A DNA stretch of 36,058 bases from the NCBI GenBank assembly GCA_903827375.1, contig CAIKHZ010000251.1:1-36058 (forward strand), read 5' to 3'. Below the pieces are notes generated by a model. That model searched no databases and was not told where the DNA came from. It saw only the letters and a program-made list of their open reading frames with translations. This DNA comes from Akkermansiaceae bacterium. Its GTDB lineage: Bacteria; Verrucomicrobiota; Verrucomicrobiia; Verrucomicrobiales; Akkermansiaceae. This document shows positions 8,041 through 23,531 of the stretch, piece after piece (positions within the stretch are counted from its first letter, which is position 1; the number at the start of each line of letters is the position of its first letter). Position numbers and translations under genes: made by a program.

Positions 8041-11000
8041 ATGTCCCGCCTGCTTCCTCTCATCACCTCATCGGATGTTGCCGTTCGCGACCAGTCGCTG
8101 GACGCGGTTTGCGCCCACCTCAGTGCCGCCGACTTACTGGCGGAGGCCGCCGCCTTGGATGCGTTCCGCCGCGCCAGCGATAACCTTTATGCCCGGGTGC
8201 GAGCCCTGCTCTTCCTCCACGCCATCCACCGCTTTCACCTGCCTGTCAGACTCGCAACGCACACCACCACTGCCGCCATCCCCTTCAGCGGTTACGAAAA
8301 CCTCCTCCAACGCCGCTTCGAGGAAGCCATCGACGTGTTTCTAACGTCTCAGCAGACCGCCGGTCCGTCTGACGCCATTTCCAGCGCCTTGGCTGCGGCC
8401 TACCACCGGTTGGCGTTTCAGACACTGGCTGACCAAGTTCGGCGCAGTGTCCGCAGCGTGCGGGGCAATCAATGGATGTTCCGCATGGGCCATCCGGCGG
8501 ATCATCCACTGCGGATCCGGCCAGAGTTATTGGAGCGGGATTCCGCGAGCGGGACCTATCCGATATTGCGGGAACGTACGCCGGTCCGCATGGACCTGAC
8601 GCACTGCGGGTGGAGCGACATTTTTTTTCTGGGAATGGACTACCCGGAGGGAGCGAAGGTGCTCAATGTGTCGATTGATCTGGCGGTGTACGGTGGGGAT
8701 GCAGCGCCGAGGCCGCCTGTGGAGGCGAGTTTTCGGGTGATTGACGAGCCGGTGTTGCGGCTCACCAGTGTGGACTTGGGCTGCACGGCGGAAATTTCCA
8801 GTCTCAACGAGGTGTTTGATTTTGCCAAGGACTACTTGGGATTGCTCAAGGCGGCGGTGATTGCGAGCGGGTTGGTGCCACCGGGCATTGAGGGGTCTGG
8901 CCAGAGCTTGGGGGACTTGTTAGCGGAGGTGGTGGGACCGGGTCGCGGCATTGAATTGGTTAGCAACGTCAATAACATCCCCAAGGGGTCGCGCCTCGCT
9001 GTTTCCACCAACCTGCTCGCCGCCCTCATCTCCGCCTGCATGCGTGCCACCAATCAGGCCCGTTCGCTCACCGGCGGCCTAGCGGAAAGCGAGCGGCGGA
9101 TTGTGCTGGCACGAGCCTTGTTGGGTGAGTGGCTGGGGGGGTCCGGCGGTGGCTGGCAGGATTCAGGTGGCGTGTGGCCCGGCATCAAACTCATCGAAGG
9201 AGCGCTGGCGATGGAAGGCGATCCGGAATTTGGGATCAGCCGCGGCCGTCTGATGCCCAGCCACCGGTTGCTTGACGTGAACGAGGTGCCGGTCGCCGCT
9301 CGCAAGCGATTGCAGGATTCGCTGGTCCTCGTCCACGGCGGCATGGCCCAAAACGTCGGCCCGATTTTGGAAATGGTCACTGAGAAGTACCTGTTGCGTT
9401 GTGACAAGGAATGGCAGGCACGCCAGCAGACCCATGGGATTCTCCAGCGAATCCTTGAGGCGCTCAAGACCGGTGACATCCAGGCGCTTGGGGCGGCCAC
9501 CAGTGAGAATTTCCAGCAGCCGATCCAAACCATCATTCCGTGGGCCAGCAACCTCTACACAGAGACATTGATCACCAAAGTCCGCGCCGAATTCGGTGCC
9601 GACTTCTGGGGCTTCTGGATGCTCGGCGGCATGGCCGGCGGGGGCATGGGTTTCATTTTTGCCCCGCAGCGGATGCACGAGGGGCGTCGGCGACTGCTAG
9701 AGATCATGACGGAAACCAAGCGCACCTTGGAATGCGCCCTGCCATTCGCCATGGCACCGGTCGTGTATGATTTTTCCATTAACGAACGTGGCACTTGGTC
9801 TGACCTGCTGGTGGGGGCCGAGGCACTCATGCCAGCGGGCTATTACAGCCTGAGCATTCCGCCGCTGCTGCGCCTGCCGCGCAACCAACTGGCAGCTCAC
9901 CATCTGACCGAGCTCAATCATTTTGCCGTTGCCTGCCGCAGCCATCCTCACCTCAGCGGGGCGGTTGAAGCGCTTTTTGATTCGATATTGCCCGGCGGTC
10001 CCGTGGAAAGTGCCAATGAAGAATCCCTAGCACTTCTCCTCGATGAATTCGGCTTCGACCCCGAAACCCACGAGCAAATCCGCGCGGACTTGAAAGTCGG
10101 CCGCCTTGGTCTCGCCCAAAACCGCCTGCCCGCCAATGCCGTCATCGAGGATGTGTTGGCAGGAGACCTATTTGACGCCACCCAGCCAGCTTCCCTGCCT
10201 GCCAGTCTTCACCAAATCGGGCTCAACGCCCTGTGCGCAGGTGAAGTGGCCGTTGTCACCCTTGCCGCTGGTGCCGGTTCGCGCTGGACCCAGGGTGCTG
10301 GCGTCGTCAAAGCCTTGCATCCATTCTGCAAATTGGGCGGCCGTCACCGGTCGTTCATCGAGACTCATCTGGCCAAGAGTCGCCAGCTCAACCGCCTCGT
10401 CGGCACTCCTTTGCCGCACGTTTTCACCACCAGTTATTTTTCGCATGCCGCCACCGAGCGGTTTTTAGCGGATCATGGCAATTACGGTTACCAAGGTCCT
10501 TTGCTCTTGTCTGTGGGCAAAAGCATCGGCCTGCGTCTCATTCCCACGGTGCGCGATTTGCGCTTTGCCTGGGAGGAAATGCCCCAGCAAATGCTCGACG
10601 TCCAGCAACAGAAAGTGCGCGACAGCTTGCGCAGCGCGCTGCTGCAATGGGCCCAGACCCACGGCGAGGCGGGCGATTATACCGCCAATCTTGCCGCCCA
10701 ATGCCTCCACCCCGTCGGTCATTGGTATGAAATCCCCAACCTCCTGCGCAACGGAACCTTGGCAAAATTGTTAGAACAGCGACCCCAGCTCCAACACCTT
10801 GTCATGCACAACATTGATACCGTCGGCATGACGGTGGACCCCGCCTTGCTGGGCCAGCACATCGCCAGCGGTGCCGGACTCACCTTCGAAGTCATCACCC
10901 GCCGCCTTGAAGATCGCGGGGGTGGCTTGGCCCGCGTCGATGGCCGCCTGCGCCTTGTTGAGGGCCTGGCCATGCCCCGCGAGCAGGACGAGTTCAATTT

Positions 11001-11370
11001 GTCGTATTACAATTCCAACACCTGTTGGATCCACATCGACCAACTCCTCGCCACCTTCAAGTTGAGCCGTGCAGACCTCAATGATCTGGAGAAAGTCAAC
11101 CGGGCTATCCGAAAGGTGGCCGCCCGGATGCCCACTTACATCACTCTCAAGGAGGTCAAAAAGCGCTGGGGGCGTGGCCAAGAGGACGTATTCCCGGTCT
11201 GCCAGTTCGAAAAACTGTGGGTCGATATGAGCAGCCACTCAGGTCTGGACACCCGATACATAGCTGTTCCTCGGGCCCGCGGCCAGCAACTCAAGGACCA
11301 GGCGCAGCTCGACGGCTGGCTGCGCGATGGCTCCGCCGCTCATCTGGAGTCCCTCTGCGAATGGACGTGA
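8041..11370 (+). CDS. Large GHMP sugar kinase / UDP-sugar pyrophosphorylase fusion
   Basis: The product is 1109 residues in three parts. Residues 1-170 are a mostly helical region I do not recognise. Residues about 175-650 resemble a fucokinase-type GHMP kinase: RTPVRMDLTHCGWSDIFF, the ATP loop PKGSRLAVSTNL (from 314), the catalytic-Asp segment GGGWQDSGGVWPGIKL (Asp 374) and the third motif GGMAGGGMGFIF (from 529). Residues about 735-1109 resemble the UDPGP family of UDP-glucose/UDP-GlcNAc pyrophosphorylases: LAAGAGSRWTQGAGVVKAL (741-759), HNIDTVGMTVDPALLG, GGGLARVDGRL. Together these would phosphorylate a free sugar at C1 and load it onto a nucleotide. The ATP loop is degenerate (GSRLAVST for GSGLGSSS). 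The known bifunctional Fkp/FKGP enzymes have the reverse order, pyrophosphorylase first. The gene follows the GalU-like gene by 12 nt. Confidence 0.78.
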   Translation: MSRLLPLITSSDVAVRDQSLDAVCAHLSAADLLAEAAALDAFRRASDNLYARVRALLFLHAIHRFHLPVRLATHTTTAAIPFSGYENLLQRRFEEAIDVFLTSQQTAGPSDAISSALAAAYHRLAFQTLADQVRRSVRSVRGNQWMFRMGHPADHPLRIRPELLERDSASGTYPILRERTPVRMDLTHCGWSDIFFLGMDYPEGAKVLNVSIDLAVYGGDAAPRPPVEASFRVIDEPVLRLTSVDLGCTAEISSLNEVFDFAKDYLGLLKAAVIASGLVPPGIEGSGQSLGDLLAEVVGPGRGIELVSNVNNIPKGSRLAVSTNLLAALISACMRATNQARSLTGGLAESERRIVLARALLGEWLGGSGGGWQDSGGVWPGIKLIEGALAMEGDPEFGISRGRLMPSHRLLDVNEVPVAARKRLQDSLVLVHGGMAQNVGPILEMVTEKYLLRCDKEWQARQQTHGILQRILEALKTGDIQALGAATSENFQQPIQTIIPWASNLYTETLITKVRAEFGADFWGFWMLGGMAGGGMGFIFAPQRMHEGRRRLLEIMTETKRTLECALPFAMAPVVYDFSINERGTWSDLLVGAEALMPAGYYSLSIPPLLRLPRNQLAAHHLTELNHFAVACRSHPHLSGAVEALFDSILPGGPVESANEESLALLLDEFGFDPETHEQIRADLKVGRLGLAQNRLPANAVIEDVLAGDLFDATQPASLPASLHQIGLNALCAGEVAVVTLAAGAGSRWTQGAGVVKALHPFCKLGGRHRSFIETHLAKSRQLNRLVGTPLPHVFTTSYFSHAATERFLADHGNYGYQGPLLLSVGKSIGLRLIPTVRDLRFAWEEMPQQMLDVQQQKVRDSLRSALLQWAQTHGEAGDYTANLAAQCLHPVGHWYEIPNLLRNGTLAKLLEQRPQLQHLVMHNIDTVGMTVDPALLGQHIASGAGLTFEVITRRLEDRGGGLARVDGRLRLVEGLAMPREQDEFNLSYYNSNTCWIHIDQLLATFKLSRADLNDLEKVNRAIRKVAARMPTYITLKEVKKRWGRGQEDVFPVCQFEKLWVDMSSHSGLDTRYIAVPRARGQQLKDQAQLDGWLRDGSAAHLESLCEWT

Positions 11371-11464: not shown

Positions 11465-11683
11465 ATGCAGCTCACGTTGGCGTTTATCACTTCTCCTCAG
11501 GATTGGACCATGATCCTCCTGATCGTTTTGTTATTGTTCGGTGCTAAAAAACTCCCTGAACTGGCTCGCGGCGTTGGCAAGAGCATGGGTGAATTCAAGC
11601 GCGCCAAGGACGATTTCGAGAGCCAAATTACGAAGGCCGCCACCGAGTTGCCTGCCGAAAAACCACCTCACGACAAAGCTTGA
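11465..11683 (+). CDS. tatA: Sec-independent protein translocase subunit TatA/TatE
   Basis: The product is 72 residues with the standard TatA layout: a short N-terminus, one membrane helix (about residues 7-25, ending LLFG), the conserved hinge FGAKKLPELARGVGKSMGEF, and an amphipathic helix and polar tail. TatA multimers form the pore of the twin-arginine pathway in the inner membrane. The ATG at 11465 gives the compact family start; the frame is open upstream to 11327 but that extension is not Tat-like. TatB and TatC are not in this window. At least one Tat substrate is predicted here, the Gfo/Idh protein at 1656-2981. It could be TatA or TatE, and no Shine-Dalgarno is visible. Confidence 0.9.
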   Translation: MQLTLAFITSPQDWTMILLIVLLLFGAKKLPELARGVGKSMGEFKRAKDDFESQITKAATELPAEKPPHDKA

Positions 11684-11754
11684 GACCTTTGGTGCGGGGG
11701 CTTGTTCCTCGCCGATGTGGGGCGTGAGAATCCCCGGTAGAGTCGCCGAGATGG

Positions 11755-14721
11755 CTAATCTGAGGCGTCCGGCGCTGGCAGCCAGCGCTCTAGCACGAGT
11801 GCCAGCGAGGCGGGGGTGATCGGTTTGGGGACGTAGTCATTCATGCCCGCCTCCAGGCACAATTCCCGATCCCCTTGCATGGCATTGGCCGTCATTGCAA
11901 TGATCGGTAGCCCGGGATTGAGCGCGGCGCCGCCCGCTGCACGAATCAAGCGGGTGGCTTCCAGCCCGTCCATTCCGGGCATTTGCATATCCATGAGCAC
12001 CAGATCATAGGACAGCTTGGCAATGGCTTCGACGGCTTCCTTGCCGTTGGCCACCACATCCACGGGCAATCCCATATTGTGAAGGTACCCCGAGGCCACC
12101 TTTTGGTTGATCAGGTTGTCCTCGGCCAGCAGAACCCGCAGGGACGGCCAGTGGCTGCGCATAGCCGTCGGGAGGTGCCTTGGTGGTGCCACATCCGCTG
12201 CTTGGGCGGAAGGACTGGCAAAACAGGCGGTAAACCAGAACTCGGACCCGCAGCCAACACTACTTGAAACCCCGATCTCTCCTCCCATCAGTTGAACCAG
12301 CTGCTTCGAAATAGCCAAACCCAGCCCTGTGCCGCCGTAATGCCGGGATGTGGATGCATCCACTTGGCTGAATTTCGAAAATAGCAACGCTTGCTTGTCT
12401 GCCGGGATGCCAATGCCGGTGTCCTGCACCGCAAAGCGAACGATCCGGCTGTCGGCGGAGGACACAGTCAAGCTGGCTCGCACGGTTACCTCCCCATCCG
12501 GGGTGAACTTGATGGCGTTGCCGGCCAAATTGAGCAGGACTTGGCGCAAGCGGTTGGGATCGCCTCGCAGCTGGCTAGGGGTGCCTGGAGCGATGCTGCA
12601 ACTGAATTGGAGACCCTTGCTGTGGGCGCGGATGGTCAGCAGTTCGCCAAGTTCCTCCAGCAGGGCGGGTAAATCAAAGTCCAATACCTCCAAGTCGAGC
12701 TTGCCAGCCTCGATTTTTGAAAAATCCAGAATGTCGTTGATGAGCTTGAGGAGGATTTCTCCGCTGGTATGGACCATTTTGGCATATTCGCGCTGCTTTT
12801 CGCTGAGCGTACCAGCCAACAGCAAGCTGGTCATGCCGATGACGCCGTTCATGGGGGTTCGGATTTCGTGGCTCATGTTAGCCAGAAATTCGCTCTTGGC
12901 ACGGTTGGCCAACTCGGCTTTCTCGGAGAGTTCGGTGGCGCTGGCGGTGGCGACTTCGAGTTGGCGGTTGCTGGCGATCAGTTCGGAGCTGCGCAGCTGC
13001 ACCAAGCGTTCCAATTTCTCCCGCTGGCGCAACGGCAAGCTTAGCGCAAGAGCGAGCCCGACGGTGAGGCCGAGGCTTAAAAGTGCGGTGAGTGAAACCA
13101 GCCACCGTGGGTGCAGGCCTAGGAATTGTCCACCCGCAGTGGCGGTGACGACAAGCGTCTTGCCGAAGGCTAGAACCGGGCGCATGACGCATAATCCGGC
13201 ACGCTGGTGGGGATCTGCATAGCCACGGCTAGCGAGCGACTCCGGGCGGGAATTGCGGTGCAGGAGCGAGAGTTCGAGCAGGGTGGAATCGTGCGTTGCT
13301 ACGTTCTTTAAAAGCCGATCGCTTCGCAGAAGTGCCAATGCGAAACCCTTCAAGCGCCGCTCCGTTCCATCGGTATAGACTGGCCGACAAATCATCAGCG
13401 CCTTCTGGTTATCTGTTTCCTCCCCCAAGTTGAGCGGGTCGCTACTGGTGAGCAGACCACTGCGTTGGGCTTCCTCCAGCGTCATCCGGCGCAGCGGATC
13501 CGAGCCGAGATCGTAACCCAAGACCGTCTCATTACCGGCCTCCGGGGCAGCTTGTAGGACTGGATAATAGACATCGCGGCCGCTGGCTGGCACCCGCTGG
13601 CCCTGCTCGTCTTTTTGCCAGATCATAAAGTCCTTCAATCCCGAAGCGCGGACCTGCTCTTCGAAGTTGGCTCGCTCCGCGGCTGGCACAGCTGGAATCC
13701 ACTCCCAAACTTGGACATTCGGGTTTTTCACCAGATGGGTGGTGAAGGACTGGAACTCGTTGCGGCTGAGGGTCTCAGCGTGTTGGTAAAGGCATGCCAG
13801 ACCTTCCAGTTCCGTGCGGGCCATGGCTTGCAGTGTGACGGCGATCTCGCCAGTGCGACTGGCAGCTAGTTGGCCAAACGCGAGTTCACGGTCACGCGCT
13901 TCGATTTGGTGGGCCATCCAGGTTGCAAACAGGGTGAGTAGCAGGCCGACGCCCCCCCCCAGCGCCGGTTCAAGGTGACGCATCCAGCGTGGCGAGTGAG
14001 CGCCGCTTCGGCTGCGTCGCCGCACAAGCATTGCGCCAAGCACCACCAAGGCAGCCAGCGCCAGCGAGAGCAGTGCGGATGGCAGCGCCGCGCGTACCTG
14101 CAATCGATTCCAACTCTGGCCATCAATATCCAAGCCCAGCACTGCGAGAACTGAGTCACCGTTGTCGCCTGCCCGGACATCAGTCGCGTGGGCCGTCCCT
14201 CCATCGCCTGGCGGGTGAGGGGCAAGGGCCGGAGGGGCAAGGAGTGTCACGAAGCCGGTGACCCACGTGCCCCAGCGGTCGCTGTTAGGGCCTTCGGTGG
14301 TGGCAGAGGCGGAGGTGAAGACATGCCGGTAAGACTCGGGGGCTTCCTCATAAATCTGTCCTGGCGGGGAATAATCTTTGGAGCTGGGATCTTCGCTATC
14401 AACAAAGAAAAACAGCTTGCCGTCAGGCTTTTGGCCCATCAGGTAGAGGAAACGGCATTCCGGGATGGCAGCACGAGTGAGGGTGAGTTGCTCCTTGAGG
14501 CGCTGGTACTTCGGGTTTTGCAAATCTGCCGTCGTGGCACTGAGCGTCTGAATCGCCTCGGTATCCAGGGTTTGCGCCAGCAGTTGCGTTTGTGCCAGCA
14601 GGTCGGCACGTGCGGCGTGGTCGGCCGATACAACGATCTGCCATGTCAGAACACTGCCAGCCAGGAGGATGGTCAGCAGCAGCAGCAGCACAAGGCCCCA
14701 TAATCTGCGTTCTTGCATCAT
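11755..14721 (-). CDS. CHASE-domain hybrid sensor histidine kinase
   Basis: The product is a 988-residue inner-membrane sensor. An N-terminal helix (about 8-28) is followed by a first periplasmic region ending at a membrane segment near 206-230. Another membrane segment (about 252-270) leads to a CHASE-type periplasmic domain (about 275-490; [12 protein letters not shown], then [20 protein letters not shown]), which binds small ligands in other proteins. A last membrane segment (540-564) precedes a coiled linker, HisKA ([10 protein letters not shown], phospho-acceptor His 618), HATPase_c ([29 protein letters not shown]) and a receiver domain with acceptor Asp 911 ([11 protein letters not shown]). 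There is no Hpt or output domain, so phosphate must pass to another protein, perhaps via the Hpt of the neighbouring kinase. Codons 254-257 contain a run of nine G, a possible slippage site. It starts 113 bp after the small membrane ORF. Confidence 0.92.
13952..13960. repeat. Poly-C/G tract (9) inside the CHASE kinase gene
   Basis: Nine C on the plus strand are nine G in the coding strand of the 11755-14721 kinase, reading through a Gly-Gly-Gly stretch at residues 254-257. A slip of one base would frameshift the gene before its CHASE, kinase and receiver domains. Confidence 0.9.
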
Positions 14722-14833
14722 GTTTGGTGACCGAGGGTAGGCTCTGGACCTTCGAGTTTACGGGCGCGCCCCCACGGAAGTGGCTGCATCCCCGGAGCCG
14801 GGGTATTCCTGGTTGTGTAACAGAAAAAACATG
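14722..14833 (-). other. Intergenic gap with a short GC-rich hairpin
   Basis: This 112-bp gap between the small membrane ORF and the CHASE kinase contains the palindrome CCCCGGAGCCGGGG (about 14787-14800), a 6-bp stem with a 2-nt loop. No U-tract follows on either strand, so it is not a clear terminator. The CHASE kinase may be the last gene of the upstream operon or may have its own promoter here. Confidence 0.4.
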
Positions 14834-15025
14834 CTAAGCGAGAATGTTCAAGCGCGGGATTACGGATTGGAGGCCGCTGGTTGTGTTCCCTTCGAGCCGG
14901 GACAATGTCCGCAAGATGTTGCGTGCCAGGACGAAGCCGACTAGTTCCACTAGAAAAATCACCGCCAGGGCACCGAAAAGCACGATTTTTTCAAGGATGC
15001 AGGCAGCGGAGTTGGTGAATTTCAT
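14834..15025 (-). CDS. Putative 63-residue single-pass membrane protein
   Basis: The start at 15025 (MKFTNSAACILEKIVLFG) lies 4 nt after the stop of the PAS-GAF hybrid kinase, a spacing typical of translational coupling. The predicted protein has one long hydrophobic helix (about residues 12-35) followed by a basic tail (ARNILRTLSRLEG). I recognise no family. It could be a small partner of one of the flanking kinases, or a chance ORF. The coupled position and the strongly amphipathic layout support it, while the short length argues for caution. The frame is open further upstream to 15121, but that region overlaps the kinase gene. Confidence 0.45.
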   Translation of the reverse strand: MKFTNSAACILEKIVLFGALAVIFLVELVGFVLARNILRTLSRLEGNTTSGLQSVIPRLNILA

Positions 15026-15029
15026 GGTT

Positions 15030-17615
15030 CTATGTGGTGAATGCTGGAACGGTTTGTTCCCATTTCTTGATAGCTTCGAAACTATTTTGCCAGAGTTCTG
15101 AGAGTTCCGCGTGGAGTCCACCGGCTCGCTCCGGCGCTACATCTTCAAATTGCTCCAACTCTGCCAGCCGGGCACTGATGGCAATGCAACCGAAGCACCC
15201 CAGAATCCCTTTCAGCGAGTGGCTTCGCCGCTTGAAGGCCGGGATGTCTCCCTCCGCAATGAAAACGCGGATGAACTCAAGGGATTCGGGGACTTCTTGC
15301 AGTAGATCACCTAAAATATCGAAATAGCCAACTTTGCCGATCTCAATGAATGTATTGAGTTGTTGCACGTCGATAAGCTGACGTAGGGCGGGGTGGGGTG
15401 GGGGTTGCATTTGTTTGGTAGGTAGGGCTGCCTCCGACGGCGTTCCGTTGATATGAGCCAATAGATTCTGCAGGCGGTCTGTAGTGATGGGTTTTGTAAA
15501 ATACTCATCCATGCCTGCGGCACTCGCCGCATCGCGGTCACCATGATATGCATTGGCTGTTAGGGCCACAATGTATGGACGATGGGCCAACTCCAAGGCG
15601 CGGATTTGTCGGCACGCATCCAGACCGTCCATCACCGGCATGTGAAGATCAAGCAATATCAGGTCATACGCGCTATCTCGCGCAGCGGCAACCGCTTGCA
15701 GGCCATCGCAGACCAGATCGGGGGTGATACCGAGGCGCTGGAGATGCAGTCGAATAATCTTTTGGTTGTTCGAATTGTCTTCCGCGACGAACACACGCAG
15801 CTTGTCGAAGGGCACCGGGACGTCCGCTGGGGCCATGGCTGGTTCGCTAGGGGCGGTGGCAGTCATCCCATGGTTCGTCTCATGCAGGGGTAGGGACCAG
15901 GTGAACGTGGATCCTTCACCATGAACACTCGTGACGCGAATATCCCCATGCAATGCCTCTGCAAGGCGTTTGCTGATCGCCAGGCCCAGCCCCGAACCGT
16001 CAAAGCGGCGGGTACTCGCCGAGTCAGCCTGCACAAAGGGTTTGAACAAGCCGTTGACGGTCTCCTGGGTCATCCCGATGCCTGAATCCTTGACTTCAAA
16101 GGTGATCTGCCAACGCGCGTTGGCGTCCAGACCGCCACTGACCCTCAGACTGACGAAGCCGCGGGGAGTGAATTTGACGGCATTGCCTAGCAGATTAACT
16201 AAAATCTGTTTCATTCGGACACGATCCTCCTCAATGAAAGCTGGGAGTTGGTCGGCGACGTGGCAGCTGAGATCGAGGTGTTTGCCTTGAGCCGCTGGGC
16301 GAACGATGTCACAGGCCTCTTCACACAAATCGCCCAATGAAAAGTTTGTCACCGCGAGGTCGATTTGCCCACTCTCGATGCGCGAGTAGTCCAGGATGTC
16401 ACTGATGATTTGTAGTAAAAAATGCCCTGATCCAAGCAGGGTCCGGATGAAATCCAGCTGTTGGGCGTTGAGCGGGGTGCTTTCCAAGAGCGAGGCCATG
16501 CCGATGATGCCATTGAGGGGAGTGCGGATCTCATGGCTCATGGTCGCGAGGAAGATGCTCTTGGCGCGGTTCGCTGTCTCAGCGGCCAGTGCGGCGTCAC
16601 GGGCGGCATCGCGGGCGATGACGAGGGCGTCGGCTTCATCCTGGGCGACTTGGCGCAAGCCGATATTGGCGGCGGCAGAGCGGAGGATGGCGATTTCCCA
16701 AGGTTGCCAGCGGCGGTCTTCGCAGCAGGCATCGAAGCCCATGAAACCGCTGAGTTGGGTGCCGACGAAGATGGGGACGACCACTAGCGAGCGGATCTCC
16801 TGAGCGATGAGCATCGCTTGTTCGCTTGCCGGAAAGTCTTGCACTCCGCCACTGATGACACGGCCAGCTAGCAACTCCGGCAACCAACGGTCGTAGCCGT
16901 TTTCGTGAAACGAGAAATTTTGGAGTTTGGGGTTTTCGAGTTGCGGGCTGGCGGCACCGGAATTCCATTCGGCAATCTGGCTCAAGGCAGGGGTTCCGAG
17001 TTGCGGGTGCGGATGAATGCGGAATAGATAGCAACGATCCGCGTTGGCAGCGGCACCCAGAGCCGCTAGAATCTCTCCCCATACGGCAGCGTTGGGGCGA
17101 TTCGCCAGCAGCATGGTGCTGGTGAGCGCCACAGCCTCCATCAGATTGCTGGACCGTCGGGCTTGGGTTACGTCGCGCTGAATCGACATGAAGCCCGTAA
17201 CATGGCCGTTGTGATCGACGAGTGGCTGGCATTCGAGATGAATGATAAAGGAGCAGCCGTTTTTGCTGTAGTTCACGAGTTCCGCCTCAAAACCTGAGCC
17301 ATTGCGAATGCATTCACGGATGCGGGCTCGCTCGGAGAAGTTGTCTTGGGGGCGCTGGAGCAAGCTGCCTGGGGATTTGCCGATGGATTCTTCCAAGCTA
17401 TAGCCGGTAATTTTAGTAAACCCTTCGTTGACCCACTCGACGCGGCCCTCCCGGTCCGTGATGATCACGCCATTATCCGTGAGTTTGGCAACTCGAGCCA
17501 GTCGCGTCGTGTCGGCACGCGAGCGCCGACTCGTTCGCTGCTCGCGGATGAAAAAGAAACAACTCACCGCAGTCGCGATCAGGCAAAAGCTGGTTAGAAA
17601 AAGCGGCGGATCCAT
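15030..17615 (-). CDS. PAS-GAF hybrid histidine kinase with receiver and Hpt domains
   Basis: The product is 861 residues. A single N-terminal membrane helix (about 3-22) is followed by a PAS domain ([20 protein letters not shown], then [14 protein letters not shown]), a GAF domain (about 160-320), HisKA with [10 protein letters not shown] (acceptor His 361), HATPase_c ([28 protein letters not shown]), a receiver ([11 protein letters not shown], Asp 656) and a C-terminal Hpt domain (RRSHSLKG, His 799). It therefore carries a complete His-Asp-His relay in one chain. The start at 17615 ([10 protein letters not shown]) is 17 nt after the stop of the EpsI-like gene, so I infer it belongs to the exosortase operon. 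PEP-CTERM loci of other bacteria also carry dedicated kinases (PrsK, GAF-containing), but their architecture differs. The partner response regulator is not in the window. Confidence 0.93.
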
Positions 17616-17632
17616 GGGTGAGGGTGGCAGGC

Positions 17633-18217
17633 TTAACGGAAGCCGAGGGCGGGCAGCAGGATCTGGCGGACACGGTCCCAATCGACCGGTTCGTTAGGAA
17701 TGCTCCGGAGGGTGACTAAAACGGGTTCGGGGCCGCTGCGGCCGAGGGTGGCCCTGCGTGCGCTGGTTTCCAGCCAGTATTCGATGGATGAGGCGAATTG
17801 CTGTTTGCCGTCATCAAAGAACCAGAGCGCCTGAGCCGTCTGGTCACCCTTGGCGAGCGACATCCAAGTGGCATCCCCAGACGGCACCTTGACGCTGGTC
17901 TTGGCTTGAATCTGCCAGCCAGCACCCGCAAAGCAATAGCCTGGATCATGGACTGCGTGGCGGTTTTTGCTGCCGTCGGTTACGGTGAGGATCACATGGC
18001 CACCGCCCCGCATTTCAATGAGTCTCTGGATCGCTTCAGCCTTGCCGAGAAATGCGCGATCGTCGGGGTTGGGAGCCATTGGCGATGAGTGAAAATCCGC
18101 CGTGGCTATGGGAATGGCTGCCAGGCGATCGGACGCCGAGGGAATAGGCAGGCACGGCCAGATTAGGGTGATGAGGGCGGTAAAAATAAGGCCGCCCCAT
18201 TGAAGGAAGCGCTTCAT
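17633..18217 (-). CDS. EpsI-like exosortase-associated protein
   Basis: The product is 194 residues. An N-terminal hydrophobic helix ([20 protein letters not shown]) anchors or exports the protein. The middle contains [19 protein letters not shown] (Cys 95), which fits the EpsI-type pattern in which a His/Cys segment precedes a Gly-Trp; EpsI domains are found beside or fused to exosortases. The C-terminus ([20 protein letters not shown]) is family-typical. The role is probably in exosortase-dependent processing or polymer export at the periplasmic face, though the exact function of EpsI proteins is not settled. Its ATG overlaps the stop of the preceding gene by 4 nt (ATGA). The family call rests on motif resemblance and position. 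Confidence 0.7.
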
Positions 18218-18732
18218 GGCTGGTGTAAATTGGCGTGAAATGATTGGCGCTTGTAACGAGCCAGTATGAGTAGGAAAACACCTAGGCTCGACGCTAGGAC
18301 CGGGCGCTCCCAACCTGAGAGTCCAGCATTCTTCCAGTGACTCACAAACCAGCCGCTGGCAGGCAGCCAAGTGAAGGAGGTGGCAATGGTGACAAATCCG
18401 CTAAAACGCCAGCCGAAGGTGCCGGCAAGTGCGCTGGCCAGAGCTAGATGCTGGAGAACGCGCAACTCTGTCATCGCCCCGGCGATGCACAGCAACATGG
18501 CCAGACCGAGCCAAGCCGTTCTGGGCGCGATGGGCGTGTGGCGGAAGGAGACGCGCCACCCAATTTGCGGGATCAGCCAAATAGCGCATGCCAGAGGCGA
18601 GCCGCGAGCATAAAGGTCGTGGCCCCAGGCCTCGGTGATGGTGGGCAGTGCCTGCCAAGCGGAGAGGGCGAGCACGGCCATCGGCAAGGTTAAGGATTGC
18701 ATCAGGTTGTGAGTGGGTGGGTGGGGTGTCAT
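18214..18732 (-). CDS. Polytopic membrane protein of an exosortase operon, function unknown
   Basis: The product is 172 residues with about five or six membrane segments (LPMAVLALSAWQALPTI, GSPLACAIWLIPQIGW, TAWLGLAMLLCIAGAM, ALASALAGTFGWRFSGF, PVLASSLGVFLLILARY). Its ATG overlaps the exosortase stop by 4 nt (ATGA), and its stop overlaps the ATG of the EpsI-like gene in the same way, so it is translationally coupled on both sides. I recognise no domain. The helix spacing and the region around LRVLQHLALASALAG recall the non-catalytic half of an exosortase, but no catalytic Cys/Arg set is present. It may be a partner subunit of the exosortase complex. The frame is open upstream to 18903, but the ATGA start is much more plausible. 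Confidence 0.65.
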   Translation of the reverse strand: MTPHPPTHNLMQSLTLPMAVLALSAWQALPTITEAWGHDLYARGSPLACAIWLIPQIGWRVSFRHTPIAPRTAWLGLAMLLCIAGAMTELRVLQHLALASALAGTFGWRFSGFVTIATSFTWLPASGWFVSHWKNAGLSGWERPVLASSLGVFLLILARYKRQSFHANLHQP

Positions 18733-19532
18733 ATCGATGCAGGAGGGGCCGAGAGAAAATGGCAAAGCGTTTTGGTCATGCCAAGGACTGCCGCGAGAAC
18801 GATCAGACCGGTGAGCCCGTGGAGGACCCCACTGGCCACTTGCGCGTCGAAGGAAAGCGCTATACCTGCGAGAATAAGGATGCGTAGCAAATTGGCGAGC
18901 CAAGCGAGAACGGGCAATAGGGCCAGGAGCATGGTGAAGCGGCGTGAGCTACGGATTTCGTAGGCTCCGTATGCCACGCCGGTGAGCAGGGTCAGTTGCA
19001 ATAAGTTCCAACCAGCGCAGGCGGCTTCAATTTCAACAGGCACACCGAGAACGCTGAGGTGGGTACCGTCGCGTTGGGCGGGCAATTGCAGCAAGGCGAA
19101 GATCTGCTCGGCGACCCAGGCCGAAGACAGGCGCAAGGACCAGCCGAGCGTCTGCCACTCGATGACGAGCCACGGGAAGGAGAGCAGCAAGAGCCAGACC
19201 AAGCGTTCCCGTCCGGCGACCCTGACAAAATTCTGCAGCCCCCACAGCAGCGCCAATAAGCTCCAACTCATGGACAGCAGGGTGAGGCTTCCAATGATCC
19301 AACCACAGGTGAAACCCGCTCCTCCCAGACCGATCAGACGCGGCCGCCGCTCAGCCGTCTCACCCTCCCGGCACTGCCAAGGCCGCCCAACAAAATACGC
19401 CAGTGGCAGCCCCAGCGCCAGAGGCAAGGTGTCCGCCACCGTCTCTGCCCAGCGCCAATCACGCACCCAAATCGCCACGGCCCCCAGCGCCAAGGCACCC
19501 CCGCTGATCCAGATTTGGCGGCTCGGATTCAT
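18729..19532 (-). CDS. Exosortase (PEP-CTERM protein-sorting transpeptidase)
   Basis: The product is a 267-residue integral membrane protein with about seven or eight helices. The exosortase/archaeosortase active-site pattern is visible: the Cys in EAACAGWNLLQL (Cys 172), the Arg in NLLRILIL (Arg 217) and the His in GVLHGLTG (His 238). Exosortases cut at PEP-CTERM tripartite tails in the inner membrane and pass the protein to an acceptor on the way to the surface or extracellular matrix. A matching substrate is encoded two genes upstream (21515-22351). The ATG overlaps the stop of the TPR gene by 4 nt, and its own stop overlaps the next ATG. Subtype (XrtA to XrtY series) cannot be assigned from motifs alone. 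The length is close to single-domain exosortases without the fused EpsI, which here is a separate gene. Confidence 0.88.
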   Translation of the reverse strand: MNPSRQIWISGGALALGAVAIWVRDWRWAETVADTLPLALGLPLAYFVGRPWQCREGETAERRPRLIGLGGAGFTCGWIIGSLTLLSMSWSLLALLWGLQNFVRVAGRERLVWLLLLSFPWLVIEWQTLGWSLRLSSAWVAEQIFALLQLPAQRDGTHLSVLGVPVEIEAACAGWNLLQLTLLTGVAYGAYEIRSSRRFTMLLALLPVLAWLANLLRILILAGIALSFDAQVASGVLHGLTGLIVLAAVLGMTKTLCHFLSAPPASI

Positions 19533-21493
19533 GGCTTTTTAGATTTTTCCGCAGCGTCGATTGCGATCAGGTTTTCACGAAACTTCGGCTGTTCGGGAAA
19601 ACGTCTGGCTAACAAAATTGTCCATTTTCGTGCTTGTTCAAAGTCGCCGGCTGAAAAGGCTTCTTTAGAGAGGAAAATCATGGCGTCGGCCGACTGCTCG
19701 CCAAGTTCTTGATAGATGCGGATGGTTTCGGCCCGTGATCCCTCGGCCAAGGCGCAACGGGCGAGTACTTCCTTGCCCTGCGAGCTGGTGGCGAGGGCAG
19801 GCGTGGCCAGTGTGATTTGGCGGGCCTTGGCGGGATTGCCACGCCCGAGTTCGGCCAAGGCGAGTGTCCATGCGGCACGGCTGGCATGGGGGGACTGGCC
19901 TGCTGCGACGGATTGGAGACTGGCTAAGCCCTGATCGAACGCACCGCTGGTTAGAAGCAATTCGCCAAGCAGCAACTCAGCGGCGCTGCTGCGTCTAGGC
20001 AGCCCCGCCAGCCATCGACGGGCCGACTCCTTCCCATCCCTCAATAACAGCGAGCGGCCGTACCCGTAGTCAAACCAATCCGGTCCGTTCGCTTCCATCA
20101 CCAATTTGTCCCCTTGGCCAATCATCACTGCAGCTCCTGCCCAGCCAGAGCCTAACAAAATTCCTACTGCCGCAGTGGGCTGGGCGAGCCACTGCGCCAT
20201 GCTTGCGTCACTGGCAGCGTCGCCCTTGCGCTTCGCCCAGTTGGCAAACGCGGCAACGAACGGGTGAGCATCGTCAGGAGGCACGGGCACATTCTGGCCA
20301 GCCAGGGGCAGGCGTGGGTCTTGGCCGGCGAGGGCTGCTAGGTGGGTGCGCAGGCGCAGTGCAAGCTGGGGCCAGAGGGCTTCTGCCGCATGGGAAAATA
20401 CGACTTCGAGTTGTTTGCGTATGGCGGCTGGCTCGGCCGAGCGAAGAGCCTCGAGTAGGCGCAGCCAGAGCACTTCGGGGCGCTCGCTGGCACCACGGAT
20501 GGTGGCCAGTTCGGCGTCCAAGGAGGCACTCCAAAACACATTGTCTGGGGTGGCAGCCAAGGCTGTGATGAGGGTGCTCCAGCCTTGCAGATGGCAGCTG
20601 GGCAGCGGCTGGCTTAGACGGGTACCGCCGACCCGAGCCCAGAACCAGCACTTCAGTGCATAGACTCCTAGATGGGTCTCTGCAGCGGCTTCGCGCCAGG
20701 TTTCCGCAGCGGCCGCGAGGTTGCCAACCCGCAGATAGAAACCGGCTAGCTGATCGCGGTGCAGCGGGTTGTTACCCGCGCAGAGAACAGCGGCGACGTA
20801 GTCGAGCCGCGCATCATCAAGTCTTCCGGCAGCTTCCTCAATCTGCGCCCGGAATGACAGCAGGTCCGCGTTTCTGGGATCTGCCTTGAGCCCCTCGTCA
20901 ATCGTGCCCATCGCCTTCCACGGCTCTTTGGCCTCCAGCAGCGCCAACCTGGCATGGCGCTGTGCGTCAGCCACTCCACTCAGCTGCGCGTTGCGAAGCA
21001 GCTCGCGTGCATCGTCGGGTAATTTCCGGGCTAGCAGGCGGTCCGCCTCAAGCAGCGTCCATTGGCCGATATTGCTACTCTTGGCAGCCCATTTCTCAAC
21101 AAATGCCTGATATCCCTTATCATCGCGGGCCCGCATCGCCTCACGAGCCAATTCCAGATCGGCTGCCTCCCGCAGGCCCGGATTGATCCAGTTCGCACTG
21201 TCGCTACCCAGCGCTAAGCGTAACAGGCCTGTGTCGCGGGTGGTTAGTGCGCTTTTAAGCTCGCCTAAGCGGATTTCCCGATCCATCGCCCCGCGCATTC
21301 CGGGGTCGGCGATGCTCTGGAGCGCGGCTCTGGCGGCAACAAAGTCAGTGGTGTTTATACCCTTTTCAATGGTCGTCAGGGCAAGGTGGGTCCTTTTTGA
21401 CACCACAGCTTTGCGCCACAAGCCGAGGCCAACTGCCATCAAGGAAAGCGCAAGCCCAGTACCGATGCATAGCCTCTTGATGGATGTTGCCAT
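19529..21493 (-). CDS. Membrane-anchored TPR-like repeat protein of the exosortase operon
   Basis: The product is 654 residues. An N-terminal helix (about 8-26, LCIGTGLALSLMAVGLGLW) would hold it in the inner membrane with the bulk in the periplasm. The rest is alpha-helical with degenerate TPR-type repeats, clearest at about 150-290 (AKEPWKAMGTIDEGLKADPR, AGRLDDARLDYVAAVL, GNLAAAAETWREAA) and 480-640 (LGELLLTSGAFDQGLASLQS, ELGRGNPAKARQITL, GDFEQARKWTILLARRFPEQ). TPR proteins such as PrsT/PEP-TPR accompany exosortase loci elsewhere, where they are thought to scaffold export or polymer assembly. The start lies 21 nt after the stop of the PEP-CTERM gene, and its stop overlaps the exosortase ATG by 4 nt. 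Precise function is unknown. Confidence 0.75.
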   Translation of the reverse strand: MATSIKRLCIGTGLALSLMAVGLGLWRKAVVSKRTHLALTTIEKGINTTDFVAARAALQSIADPGMRGAMDREIRLGELKSALTTRDTGLLRLALGSDSANWINPGLREAADLELAREAMRARDDKGYQAFVEKWAAKSSNIGQWTLLEADRLLARKLPDDARELLRNAQLSGVADAQRHARLALLEAKEPWKAMGTIDEGLKADPRNADLLSFRAQIEEAAGRLDDARLDYVAAVLCAGNNPLHRDQLAGFYLRVGNLAAAAETWREAAAETHLGVYALKCWFWARVGGTRLSQPLPSCHLQGWSTLITALAATPDNVFWSASLDAELATIRGASERPEVLWLRLLEALRSAEPAAIRKQLEVVFSHAAEALWPQLALRLRTHLAALAGQDPRLPLAGQNVPVPPDDAHPFVAAFANWAKRKGDAASDASMAQWLAQPTAAVGILLGSGWAGAAVMIGQGDKLVMEANGPDWFDYGYGRSLLLRDGKESARRWLAGLPRRSSAAELLLGELLLTSGAFDQGLASLQSVAAGQSPHASRAAWTLALAELGRGNPAKARQITLATPALATSSQGKEVLARCALAEGSRAETIRIYQELGEQSADAMIFLSKEAFSAGDFEQARKWTILLARRFPEQPKFRENLIAIDAAEKSKKP

Positions 21494-21514
21494 TAGGATT
21501 GGGTCTGTTTTTGA

Positions 21515-22351
21515 TCACGTTGCACGGCTGATGCGACGACGATTGAATCCAAACAGGGATCCCCCAGCCAGCAGGGCACCGAGTGCCAATGACGGCTCTG
21601 GAGCCGCCACCATGAGTTTGGCGACATTGGCGCTGCCGAGATACACGGCAAAGTAAAGATCATTGTAGTCGTGATCTCCTCCGCCAACCATGTCTTCAAA
21701 GCTGACGATCAGGTAGGGGGAGCCCGGTGTCGCCATGGCGACGGCGTGGACGATGCCGTCAGAGTTGAGGCTTTGATTGGTGGACAGCACTTGAGAGCCG
21801 CCATTGGCTCCATTGGCGATGAGAAAGAAGTCAAGGGCGGTGCCGGCTTTGAGGGTGCCTAGGTTTACGAAGTCGCCGGGCAGCAAGGGTTCGCCGACAG
21901 AGCGCAGGGGCGTGCCGGTGCCCCCTAAACCTACGGAGCTGGAGGCGTTGGGAAAAATCAAGGAGGCACCCGGGCTGTTTGGGCCGAGATCGGTTGTTGA
22001 GATGCCGAGAGTGTTTTGGTAGGCCGCGCCCTCGCCGAGGAAATACGCCCGTGCGGTGACGTCCTCGCCGAGTACCAGCTTGGAAGGGTCAAATCCAATA
22101 GTGGCTAGGTACTGGGACGATTCGTTCCTGTATTCCGGCAGCAATTTCAGCTCCGAGGTCATCATCCCGGGCAACACGTTGGCTTGGAAGGCCGCTGATG
22201 CCGCGTCTGATCCGGCAATCTGCACCGGGGCGTCAATAGTCAGATTGTAGGGAGTGGCCGGCGACTGTATCGGGCTAGCTACCTGTGCAGGCGCGAGGGT
22301 TGCTAGACCAATCCAAGCAAATGTCACCATGCAATAATTGTAGGTATGCAT
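21515..22351 (-). CDS. DUF4114-type PEP-CTERM surface protein, likely exosortase substrate
   Basis: The product is 278 residues. A signal peptide (about 1-22, ending APAQVA) leads into a beta-rich domain with the DUF4114 hallmark SFEDMVGGGDHDYNDLYFAV, an acidic, probably Ca-binding motif. The C-terminus is a PEP-CTERM tripartite tail: APEPS at 250-254, a hydrophobic helix (255-270) and the basic stop FNRRR (269-273). It would be exported by Sec, cut by the exosortase and released to the envelope or matrix. It is the first gene of the apparent operon containing the exosortase. The ATG at 22351 is used; an ATG at 22330 (MVTFAWIGLA) also gives a valid signal peptide. A TTGACT box at 22381-22386 (minus strand) with a poor -10 lies just upstream. 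Confidence 0.87.
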   Translation of the reverse strand: MHTYNYCMVTFAWIGLATLAPAQVASPIQSPATPYNLTIDAPVQIAGSDAASAAFQANVLPGMMTSELKLLPEYRNESSQYLATIGFDPSKLVLGEDVTARAYFLGEGAAYQNTLGISTTDLGPNSPGASLIFPNASSSVGLGGTGTPLRSVGEPLLPGDFVNLGTLKAGTALDFFLIANGANGGSQVLSTNQSLNSDGIVHAVAMATPGSPYLIVSFEDMVGGGDHDYNDLYFAVYLGSANVAKLMVAAPEPSLALGALLAGGSLFGFNRRRISRAT

Positions 22352-22472
22352 GCGCAGAGTTTTCCCACCCCGGTTAGCAAAGTCAATGGGTGATTGTCGA
22401 ATCAGTATGGGACCTAGGGCTTATGCTGCCCCTCGCCAGATCCGTCAGATACGCATCCTTGCCAACTTGGCT

Positions 22473-22501
22473 TTGACCTGTGACGGGTTTGCCGCTATGC
22501 C
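22473..22501 (+). promoter_or_regulatory. Possible sigma-70 promoter for pheS
   Basis: TTGACC (22473-22478), a 17-bp spacer and TATGCC (22496-22501) resemble -35 and -10 boxes. The start codon chosen for pheS (22515) lies only 13 nt after the -10 box, which would give a very short leader. This is weak support from pattern alone. Confidence 0.3.
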
Positions 22502-22514
22502 ACAGGCCTTTCCC

Positions 22515-23531
22515 ATGAAGGAGCAAATCGGAACCATCGAAAAAGACGCCCTCGCCCAGATCACCGCCGCCACCAGCGAGCGCATGCTTGATGACGCCCG
22601 CGTCGCCGTGCTCGGCAAGAAGGGTAGCCTCACGCTGGTGGCCGCCGGCATCAAGGACGTGCCCAAGGAAGAGAAGGCCGCCGTCGGCCAACTTCTCAAT
22701 GCCGCCCGAGCTGTCATCAGCGCCGCCCTCGACGTCAAGCAGACAGCGTTGCGCGGGATCGCCGACCGAGCGGCGCTGGCGGGTATGGATCCCACCTTGC
22801 CGGCGCGTGCGCTGCCGCCTGGCGCTCTGCATCCGCTCACCCAAATCCGCGATCAGGCGATCAGCATCCTGCGGCGGATGGGATTTGCCTTGGCCGATGG
22901 GCCGGAAATCGAGGACGAGTTCCATTGCTTCGATGCCCTCAACACGCCGGCCGATCACCCGGCCCGCAACGAAAAGGACACCTTCTACTTTGATTCCGGC
23001 AAGCTTCTGCGCACTCACACGTCCAGCGTGCAAATTCGCAGCATGGAGGCTCAAGCGCCGCCGATCCGTATCATCGCGCCGGGTTCGGCCTATCGCCGCG
23101 ATGAGATTGACGCCACCCATTTGTCGGTTTTCAACCAACTTGAAGGTTTGGCCGTCGGCACGGATATTTCGTTGCCAGACCTGAAAGGCACTCTCGAGTA
23201 TTTTTTCCGCGATCTCTTCGGCACCACCACTGAAGTGCGCTTCCGCCCTCACTTCTTCCCCTTCACCGAACCGAGTTTCGAAATCGACGTCAAACTCCAA
23301 ATCAAGGGCCAAGCTCCACGCTGGATCGAAGTGGCCGGCTGTGGTATGGTCGATCCCGCTGTGTTTGACGCCATCAATAAATCACGCAAAGACAACGCCT
23401 ACGATCCGGAAAATACCACCGGCTTCGCCTTCGGTATGGGCTTGGACCGTCTCGCGATGATTCGCTGGGGCATCCGCGACATTCGGTTGCTTATCGAAAA
23501 TGACGTGCGGTTTTTGCGCCAGTTTGCGTAG
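22515..23531 (+). CDS. pheS: Phenylalanine--tRNA ligase alpha subunit
   Basis: The product is 338 residues, the normal PheS length. It catalyses ATP-dependent charging of tRNA-Phe as an alpha2beta2 enzyme with PheT. The N-terminal coiled-coil (KEQIGTIEKDALAQI) is followed by the conserved ARVAVLGKKGSLT, then class II catalytic motifs: HPLTQIRDQAISILRRMGF, GPEIEDEFHCFDALNTPADHPAR, LLRTHTSSVQIR, YRRDEIDATHLSVFNQLEG, FRPHFFPFTEPSFEIDV and the motif 3 segment GFAFGMGLDRLAMIRWGI. I chose ATG 22515 (MKEQIG); an ATG at 22497 would add six residues. It is divergent from the PEP-CTERM operon, with about 160 bp between. pheT follows after 200 bp, unusually far, with a gene remnant in between. Confidence 0.97.
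   Translation: MKEQIGTIEKDALAQITAATSERMLDDARVAVLGKKGSLTLVAAGIKDVPKEEKAAVGQLLNAARAVISAALDVKQTALRGIADRAALAGMDPTLPARALPPGALHPLTQIRDQAISILRRMGFALADGPEIEDEFHCFDALNTPADHPARNEKDTFYFDSGKLLRTHTSSVQIRSMEAQAPPIRIIAPGSAYRRDEIDATHLSVFNQLEGLAVGTDISLPDLKGTLEYFFRDLFGTTTEVRFRPHFFPFTEPSFEIDVKLQIKGQAPRWIEVAGCGMVDPAVFDAINKSRKDNAYDPENTTGFAFGMGLDRLAMIRWGIRDIRLLIENDVRFLRQFA

Follow-up and report, generated by a model that had tools for sequence, protein, structure and literature searches.

The window analysed here, a 36,058-nucleotide (nt) stretch from an Akkermansiaceae bacterium (assembly GCA_903827375.1; host genome G000, 6.1 Mb in 370 contigs, of which the window is contig C251, CAIKHZ010000251.1), carries on its minus strand a conserved unit of five genes encoding, in order, a secreted substrate with a PEP-CTERM-type tail, a tetratricopeptide repeat (TPR) protein, an exosortase, a small membrane protein termed P4 and an EpsI-like protein. 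Judged from sequence, its probable function is the export and trimming of a single family of cell-surface proteins. In the reading considered likely, the five genes form a sorting cassette for surface proteins whose exosortase belongs to an uncatalogued subtype, and a hybrid histidine kinase was recruited to it separately. The initial annotation had instead described a self-contained seven-gene module, with the kinase and a 63-residue membrane open reading frame (ORF) as its last two members. All seven consecutive ORFs were recovered in that order and at the same coordinates, as were their junctions (21 nt, three 4-nt ATGA overlaps, 17 nt and 4 nt), but the conserved part comprises only the first five genes, the kinase sometimes being encoded elsewhere and the seventh ORF being a gene remnant.

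The five-gene cassette and its conservation

The exosortase (18729-19532, minus strand, 267 aa; putative triad C172/R217/H238) is a true member of its family, as first annotated, according to both general profile models and motifs. It scored above the cut-offs of PF09721 (Exosortase_EpsH; 84.0 against 25.7, Pfam) and TIGR04178 (42.3 against 23, NCBIfam), and the residues of the CxG, NxxR and HxxxG motifs, defined for exosortases in excerpts of PMC1569441, are invariant across 12 exosortase homologs (C172, G174, N214, R217, H238 and G242). Fifteen NCBIfam 20.0 families matched the protein, and TIGR04178 alone exceeded its cut-off, the models of named Xrt subtypes remaining far from theirs (for example XrtA, 54.7 against 208, and XrtZ, 25.5 against 475); the TIGRFAM/NCBIfam check proposed with the initial annotation was thus positive for the general exosortase model and negative for the named subtypes and for the tail model TIGR02595. 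The sequence had no match in the Protein Data Bank (PDB), nor did the predicted model have a Foldseek match at E <= 0.001. Of 61 genomes of the genus, searched in batches of 49 and 12, twelve carry the exosortase at E <= 5e-65 and one more (G084) carries a fragment of it, weaker matches being other exosortases or unclear; the subtype is rare across the phylum (7/387 sampled genomes at E <= 1e-40). By these scores the enzyme is an uncatalogued subtype with a predicted substrate class of its own, and the family motifs suggest that it would cleave the tail of that substrate.

The other members flank the exosortase on the same strand. The substrate (21515-22351, 278 aa) contains a DUF4114 domain (45.7 bits, Pfam cut-off 27) and is followed by the TPR protein (19529-21493, 654 aa), which has an N-terminal hydrophobic segment and a TPR_19 match of 36.0 bits, bearing out the annotated TPR gene in the exosortase neighbourhood; its score against the PrsT model TIGR02917 was 34.5, below the cut-off of 312.2. 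P4 (18214-18732, 172 aa) has no match in Pfam or NCBIfam. An alignment of 16 P4 sequences retains W52, H95, A99, W122 and P124, and the AlphaFold2 model is helical, with a mean predicted local distance difference test (pLDDT) value of 77.4. Comparison of P4 with solved folds by PDB sequence search (E <= 1), Foldseek (E <= 0.001) and VIA-align (Z >= 5), a search that lay outside PHROGs and PADLOC, returned nothing, and a relationship of P4 to the exosortase, as a piece or a relative, was set aside when profile comparison found nothing. The EpsI-like protein (17633-18217, 194 aa; one N-terminal hydrophobic segment) is present and linked as annotated, although it falls below the cut-offs of both DUF3485 (23.3 against 26.1) and EpsI TIGR02914 (17.5 against 42.8).

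The order of these five genes was found again in other families and classes, and their linkage therefore exceeds chance. Outside the genus, all five occur in order at 8 of 12 distinct loci (L041, L042, L043, L076, L077, L078, L081 and L175-L179; L079 and L080 duplicate L042 and L041). Separately from this count, they are likewise complete at L075 and in the cultured relative Luteolibacter pohnpeiensis KCTC 22041 (L072). The relatives are labelled Akkermansiaceae, Verrucomicrobiaceae and Luteolibacter pohnpeiensis. The TPR gene keeps its place between substrate and exosortase within the genus and at the outside loci, P4 homologs lie between the exosortase and EpsI-like genes wherever they were looked for, the position of the EpsI-like gene is conserved across cassette loci, and the adjacent substrates at L176, L177 and L178 are also DUF4114 proteins. 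The substrate adjoins the TPR gene in 11 of the 13 carriers within the genus, as a fragment in G084 and, in G028, on a separate contig that holds both genes. Purifying selection was evident for the five cassette genes and for the kinase, with ratios of nonsynonymous to synonymous substitution rates (dN/dS) of 0.14-0.37. In G084 (contig C378, L142, about 9457-10881), deletions have brought together fragments of the substrate, TPR, exosortase and EpsI-like genes next to a kinase gene whose frame is open; this locus may have truly decayed or may be misassembled.

The substrate family and its tails

The C terminus of the substrate, VAAPEPSLALGALLAGGSLFGFNRRRISRAT, shows by sight a PEP motif (APEP), a hydrophobic stretch and a basic cluster (RRR). 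Since its scores lie below the curated cut-offs of PF07589 (14.1 against 20.7) and TIGR02595 (14.3 against 16), the tail is named PEP-CTERM-type here and is not filed under either model, so that the earlier description of a PEP-CTERM protein holds for the visible features and the gene linkage and fails at both curated thresholds. Substrate homologs (E <= 1e-8) were detected in 13/61 genus genomes, the same 13 that contain the exosortase or its remnant (Fisher's test 1.5e-13, kinship not corrected for and one exosortase being the G084 fragment). DUF4114 homologs number three in G000, four in G031 and three in G047, where they stand in tandem directly upstream of the TPR gene (contig C221, L034, 13118-15931). 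The two further homologs of G000 lie on contig C339 (24046-26599; L148, 7897-10600) and end in PEP tails, one V-PEP and one A-PEP; the adjacent substrate is thus not strictly dedicated, as had first been supposed.

The residue preceding PEP differs between this family and the general PEP pool of the host. In 25 distinct readable DUF4114 tails (27 entries, less a duplicate and a G084 fragment that lacks the tail) it is A in 20, T in four and V in one, and four additional loci gave A, A, N and N. At E <= 1, a threshold at which weaker hits are possibly due to chance and control genomes also match, TIGR02595 gave 20 further hits in the host; 18 of these are readable, with V in 15 and I in three. 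A second exosortase, above the TIGR02602 cut-off, is encoded on contig C315 of the host.

DUF4114 has been proposed as a calcium-dependent exopolysaccharide (EPS)-binding domain in PilY1.1 of Myxococcus xanthus, according to excerpts of PMC9109919 and PMC13190605. Two other reports describe an influence of a PEP-CTERM protein and PrsT on flocculation in Aquincola (PMC9850573) and of an exosortase on motility and biofilm in Nostoc (PMC12188702). An adhesin of the matrix that is sorted by an exosortase of its own would be consistent with these reports. A search of the open-access literature found no work linking DUF4114 to PEP-CTERM or exosortases to Akkermansiaceae, and ZepA, known from the Luteolibacter exosortase literature, was dropped as a candidate relative of the substrate, the available text on ZepA containing no mention of DUF4114. 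The exosortase family is known; for the subtype, its constant set of five genes and P4, no name was found in NCBIfam or in the open-access literature searched.

The hybrid kinase and the chemoreceptor remnant

The kinase gene (15030-17615, minus strand, 861 aa) encodes PAS, GAF, HisKA, HATPase_c, Response_reg and Hpt domains, each above its Pfam cut-off, in agreement with the annotated hybrid kinase with an Hpt domain of its own. The suspicion that this is not the standard PrsK arrangement was also borne out: the PrsK model TIGR02916 (cut-off 300) is absent from the 25 best families of the kinase, the 25th of which scored 106.3 bits, and a canonical set of PrsK (354.7, cut-off 300), PrsR (573.9, cut-off 502.6) and PrsT (345.2, cut-off 312.2) adjoins a VPDSG-CTERM protein on host contig C195 (L174, 1562-9193). 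The profile scores and this separate set exclude the window kinase as PrsK and the TPR protein as PrsT; because the canonical set lies elsewhere in the genome, the kinase is taken as an addition to the Prs system and not a variant of it. Both arrangements tie a histidine kinase and a TPR protein to a PEP-CTERM system, but the window kinase differs in its PAS-GAF hybrid architecture, which includes REC and Hpt domains, and the TPR protein scores far below the PrsT model. A block of 411-412 residues following residue 22 is present in the orthologs of G084, G087 and G047 but missing from the window kinase, and G028 has the same short form. The dN/dS values between the two short forms (0.16 for the N-terminal and 0.28 for the C-terminal part) are the reason why the kinase appears to have stayed in use since the shared deletion. 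Polysaccharide export and glycosyltransferase genes lie near the kinase in G084 and an O-antigen ligase gene in G002 (Pfam), and inspection by eye showed similar genes in G012, G087 and G009. G009 has two kinase copies, and behind one of them (contig C12, L146, 5261-12787) come a separate Hpt gene and the genes for a PGAP-CTERM protein and XrtZ (635.6 against 475 bits).

The 63-codon ORF behind the kinase (14834-15025, minus strand) is, by alignment to G028 and G084, the remnant of a mostly deleted methyl-accepting chemoreceptor gene, comprising the second transmembrane helix, the first HAMP residues and the receptor C terminus. The G028 ORF at the same place has 228 codons and is 50% identical over 214 residues to the intact 532-aa chemoreceptor behind the kinase of G084, whose signalling domain is missing from the G028 and window forms. 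Compared with the G028 ORF, that of the window is shorter by an in-frame block of 495 nt, which is bordered on each side by TTCACCA, and both shortened ORFs end like the receptor C terminus (a score reached by 5/2000 shuffles and the best of 515 positions). From these alignments the ORF is derived by two in-frame deletions. No Pfam match was obtained for it, the HAMP and chemotaxis signalling domain models remaining unmatched. Compared with G028, 13 synonymous and nine nonsynonymous changes were counted in 60 codons (dN/dS 0.215), for which reason selection would have acted on the stretch for at least part of its history; past or present selection on the ORF is possible.

Behind the kinase of G084 (contig C378, 1-18500; L180, 9768-18157), the receptor gene is followed by genes for CheW, CheR, CheW, CheA-REC, CheB and a REC-HisKA-HATPase protein, and then by two hybrid kinase genes, one with a CHASE domain. 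This gene order resembles that of Wsp systems, the likeness being judged by gene order alone; the window keeps just 63 codons of the receptor at that place, and excerpts of PMC8552884 report Wsp systems solely from beta- and gammaproteobacteria. That the window lineage has lost chemosensing entirely was ruled out, two CheB genes being present elsewhere in the host genome.

Alternative readings, sorting model and locus setting

Several observations bear on whether the kinase belongs to the cassette. If substrate, sorting machinery and sensory relay formed one self-contained transcript with the kinase as an integral part, a reading considered unlikely, its position immediately after the EpsI-like gene in G000, G028, G047, G031, G046 and decayed G084, and upstream of the cassette in G079 (7/13 carriers in total), would be explained, as would the 17-nt gap ahead of it, in which no listed terminator-like site falls. 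Orthologs at E <= 1e-95 occur in 14/61 genus genomes, namely 12/13 carriers against 2/48 non-carriers (G009 and G087; Fisher's test 6.5e-10, kinship not corrected for). In G085, which lacks an ortholog at this threshold, an unrelated hybrid kinase with a phosphonate-type periplasmic binding domain, HisKA and two REC domains occupies the place directly behind the EpsI-like gene (contig C66, L144, 2531-5419). However, the kinase lies on a different contig in 3/13 carriers (G002, G012 and G027), contig ends preclude its placement in a further two (G006 and G081), the G081 match is merely 38% identical, and the gene persists in G084 despite a decayed exosortase and in G087 without this exosortase. 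Outside the genus, no kinase match adjoins the cassette directly in flanks that are short (12 nt at L076; 1.2-2.4 kb at L081, L175, L075 and L078), and at L179 a weak kinase-like match lies about 6 kb away. The initial annotation had named an unconserved neighbourhood with the kinase elsewhere as one possible refutation: the neighbourhood proved conserved and the kinase sometimes lay on another contig, which leaves half of that objection standing. The kinase hence looks like a recruited neighbour outside the conserved core.

Two further alternatives concern the cassette itself and its last ORF. The general exosortase might also handle DUF4114 tails, making the window enzyme a redundant duplicate with no specificity of its own; the PEP motif retained in these tails and the V-PEP tail of one DUF4114 protein in the host itself speak for this, but the joint occurrence of substrate family and exosortase in 13/61 genomes and the A versus V difference between tails make it improbable. 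A role for the 63-residue ORF as a functional small membrane protein within the system is rated lower still: the frame is open, starts 4 nt after the kinase and carries the dN/dS value given above, but it amounts to a G084-type receptor stripped of its signalling domain and of a further 495 nt, with no sensor left, and tblastn found no such ORF in G047 or G087. The interpretation as a five-gene sorting cassette with a separately recruited kinase also meets observations that weigh against it. The V-PEP tail in the host means that the A-PEP rule is not strict, and more distant loci have T-PEP or N-PEP tails. No substrate was found beside the cassette in G031 and G079, or at L076, L077 and L175, which hold the TPR, exosortase, P4 and EpsI-like genes (for L076 and L077, on contigs labelled Chlamydiae/Parachlamydiales, within the available stretch); in G050 (L043), tblastn recovered the exosortase, P4 and EpsI-like genes but neither a substrate nor an adjacent TPR gene, the one TPR match being weak and distant. 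In addition, the models of P4 and the exosortase have no strong match among solved folds, G009 and G087 retain the kinase without a window-type exosortase, and the kinase neighbours in G027 do not, by eye, resemble EPS genes.

For the five-gene sorting cassette, the following sequence of events is proposed. The DUF4114 protein would cross the inner membrane by means of its signal peptide and be held there by its C-terminal A-PEP motif, helix and basic tail, whereupon Cys172, Arg217 and His238 of the exosortase, at the outer face, would cut the tail and form a transient bond. Holding the substrate, or handing it to an acceptor, may be assisted by P4 and the EpsI-like protein, with the TPR protein as a putative adaptor, and the substrate, once released, would join the exopolysaccharide matrix and act there as an adhesin that binds calcium and sugars. 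The numerous V-PEP tails would fall to a general exosortase encoded at another site of the genome, giving the cell two sorting tracks. The hybrid kinase may act as a regulator of the matrix or of exopolysaccharide, linked to the cassette within the genus, with its REC-Hpt relay feeding a response regulator encoded elsewhere; in the window lineage it has lost its N-terminal region, and the chemoreceptor gene behind it has been reduced to 63 codons. The more specific proposition that two parallel exosortases read A-PEP and V-PEP tails, respectively, and that P4 is a fixed subunit handing the cut adhesin to a matrix acceptor is put forward tentatively, as possible rather than probable. In excerpts of PMC1569441, the acceptor of the cut PEP-CTERM protein is described as an unknown nucleophile. 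A cassette that combines a substrate family of its own with an additional membrane protein that is always present would be a tractable setting in which to ask about acceptor identity and exosortase helpers, and if one genome does contain two exosortases that prefer different tails, recognition specificity would become testable by tail swaps.

The cassette shares with the exosortase/PEP-CTERM/EpsI system, as presented in excerpts of Haft et al. 2006 (PMC1569441), an eight-helix-type EpsH family enzyme, the three motifs, the PEP-helix-basic tail and an EpsI-like neighbour; it differs in reaching no named Xrt subtype and in uniting substrate, TPR and P4 genes in one cassette, whereas the substrates described there are scattered single genes. 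The XrtZ/PGAP-CTERM pair (NF050190, NF050189) likewise places the enzyme next to its target, in G009 beside a window-kinase ortholog and the separate Hpt gene, but represents another exosortase subtype, tail and substrate family, and no TPR or P4 cassette was recognised there. Dedicated sorting systems, which in excerpts of Haft and Varghese 2011 (PMC3237569) have a single target per genome, resemble the cassette in that target and enzyme genes adjoin (substrate-TPR-exosortase in 11/13 genus carriers, with G084 as fragments); the host, in contrast, has three DUF4114 homologs, one adjacent and two distant.

Within 11500-22700 of the window, promoter-like sites (4 against 3.4 in shuffles) and terminator-like sites (15 against 10.9, standard deviation 3.3) were near expectation, and among the terminator-like sites listed none fell in the gaps at 21494-21514, 17616-17632 and 15026-15029. 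A pattern scan of the window for sigma-54 sites gave 34 matches against 26.2 expected, none of them in the gap upstream of the substrate gene, and therefore did not support a site like those of proteobacterial PEP-CTERM genes. Searches of the window against Rfam and for tRNA genes returned no match. A short gap separates the cassette from the facing pheS gene, and the pheS-pheT neighbourhood is common to G028. On the other side, a CHASE-domain hybrid kinase without Hpt (11755-14721, minus strand) follows, as it does after the kinase in G028, G047 and G087. Among ten neighbours tested, the sole sugar-related match, besides a ketohexokinase, was a UDPGP domain at 8041-11370.

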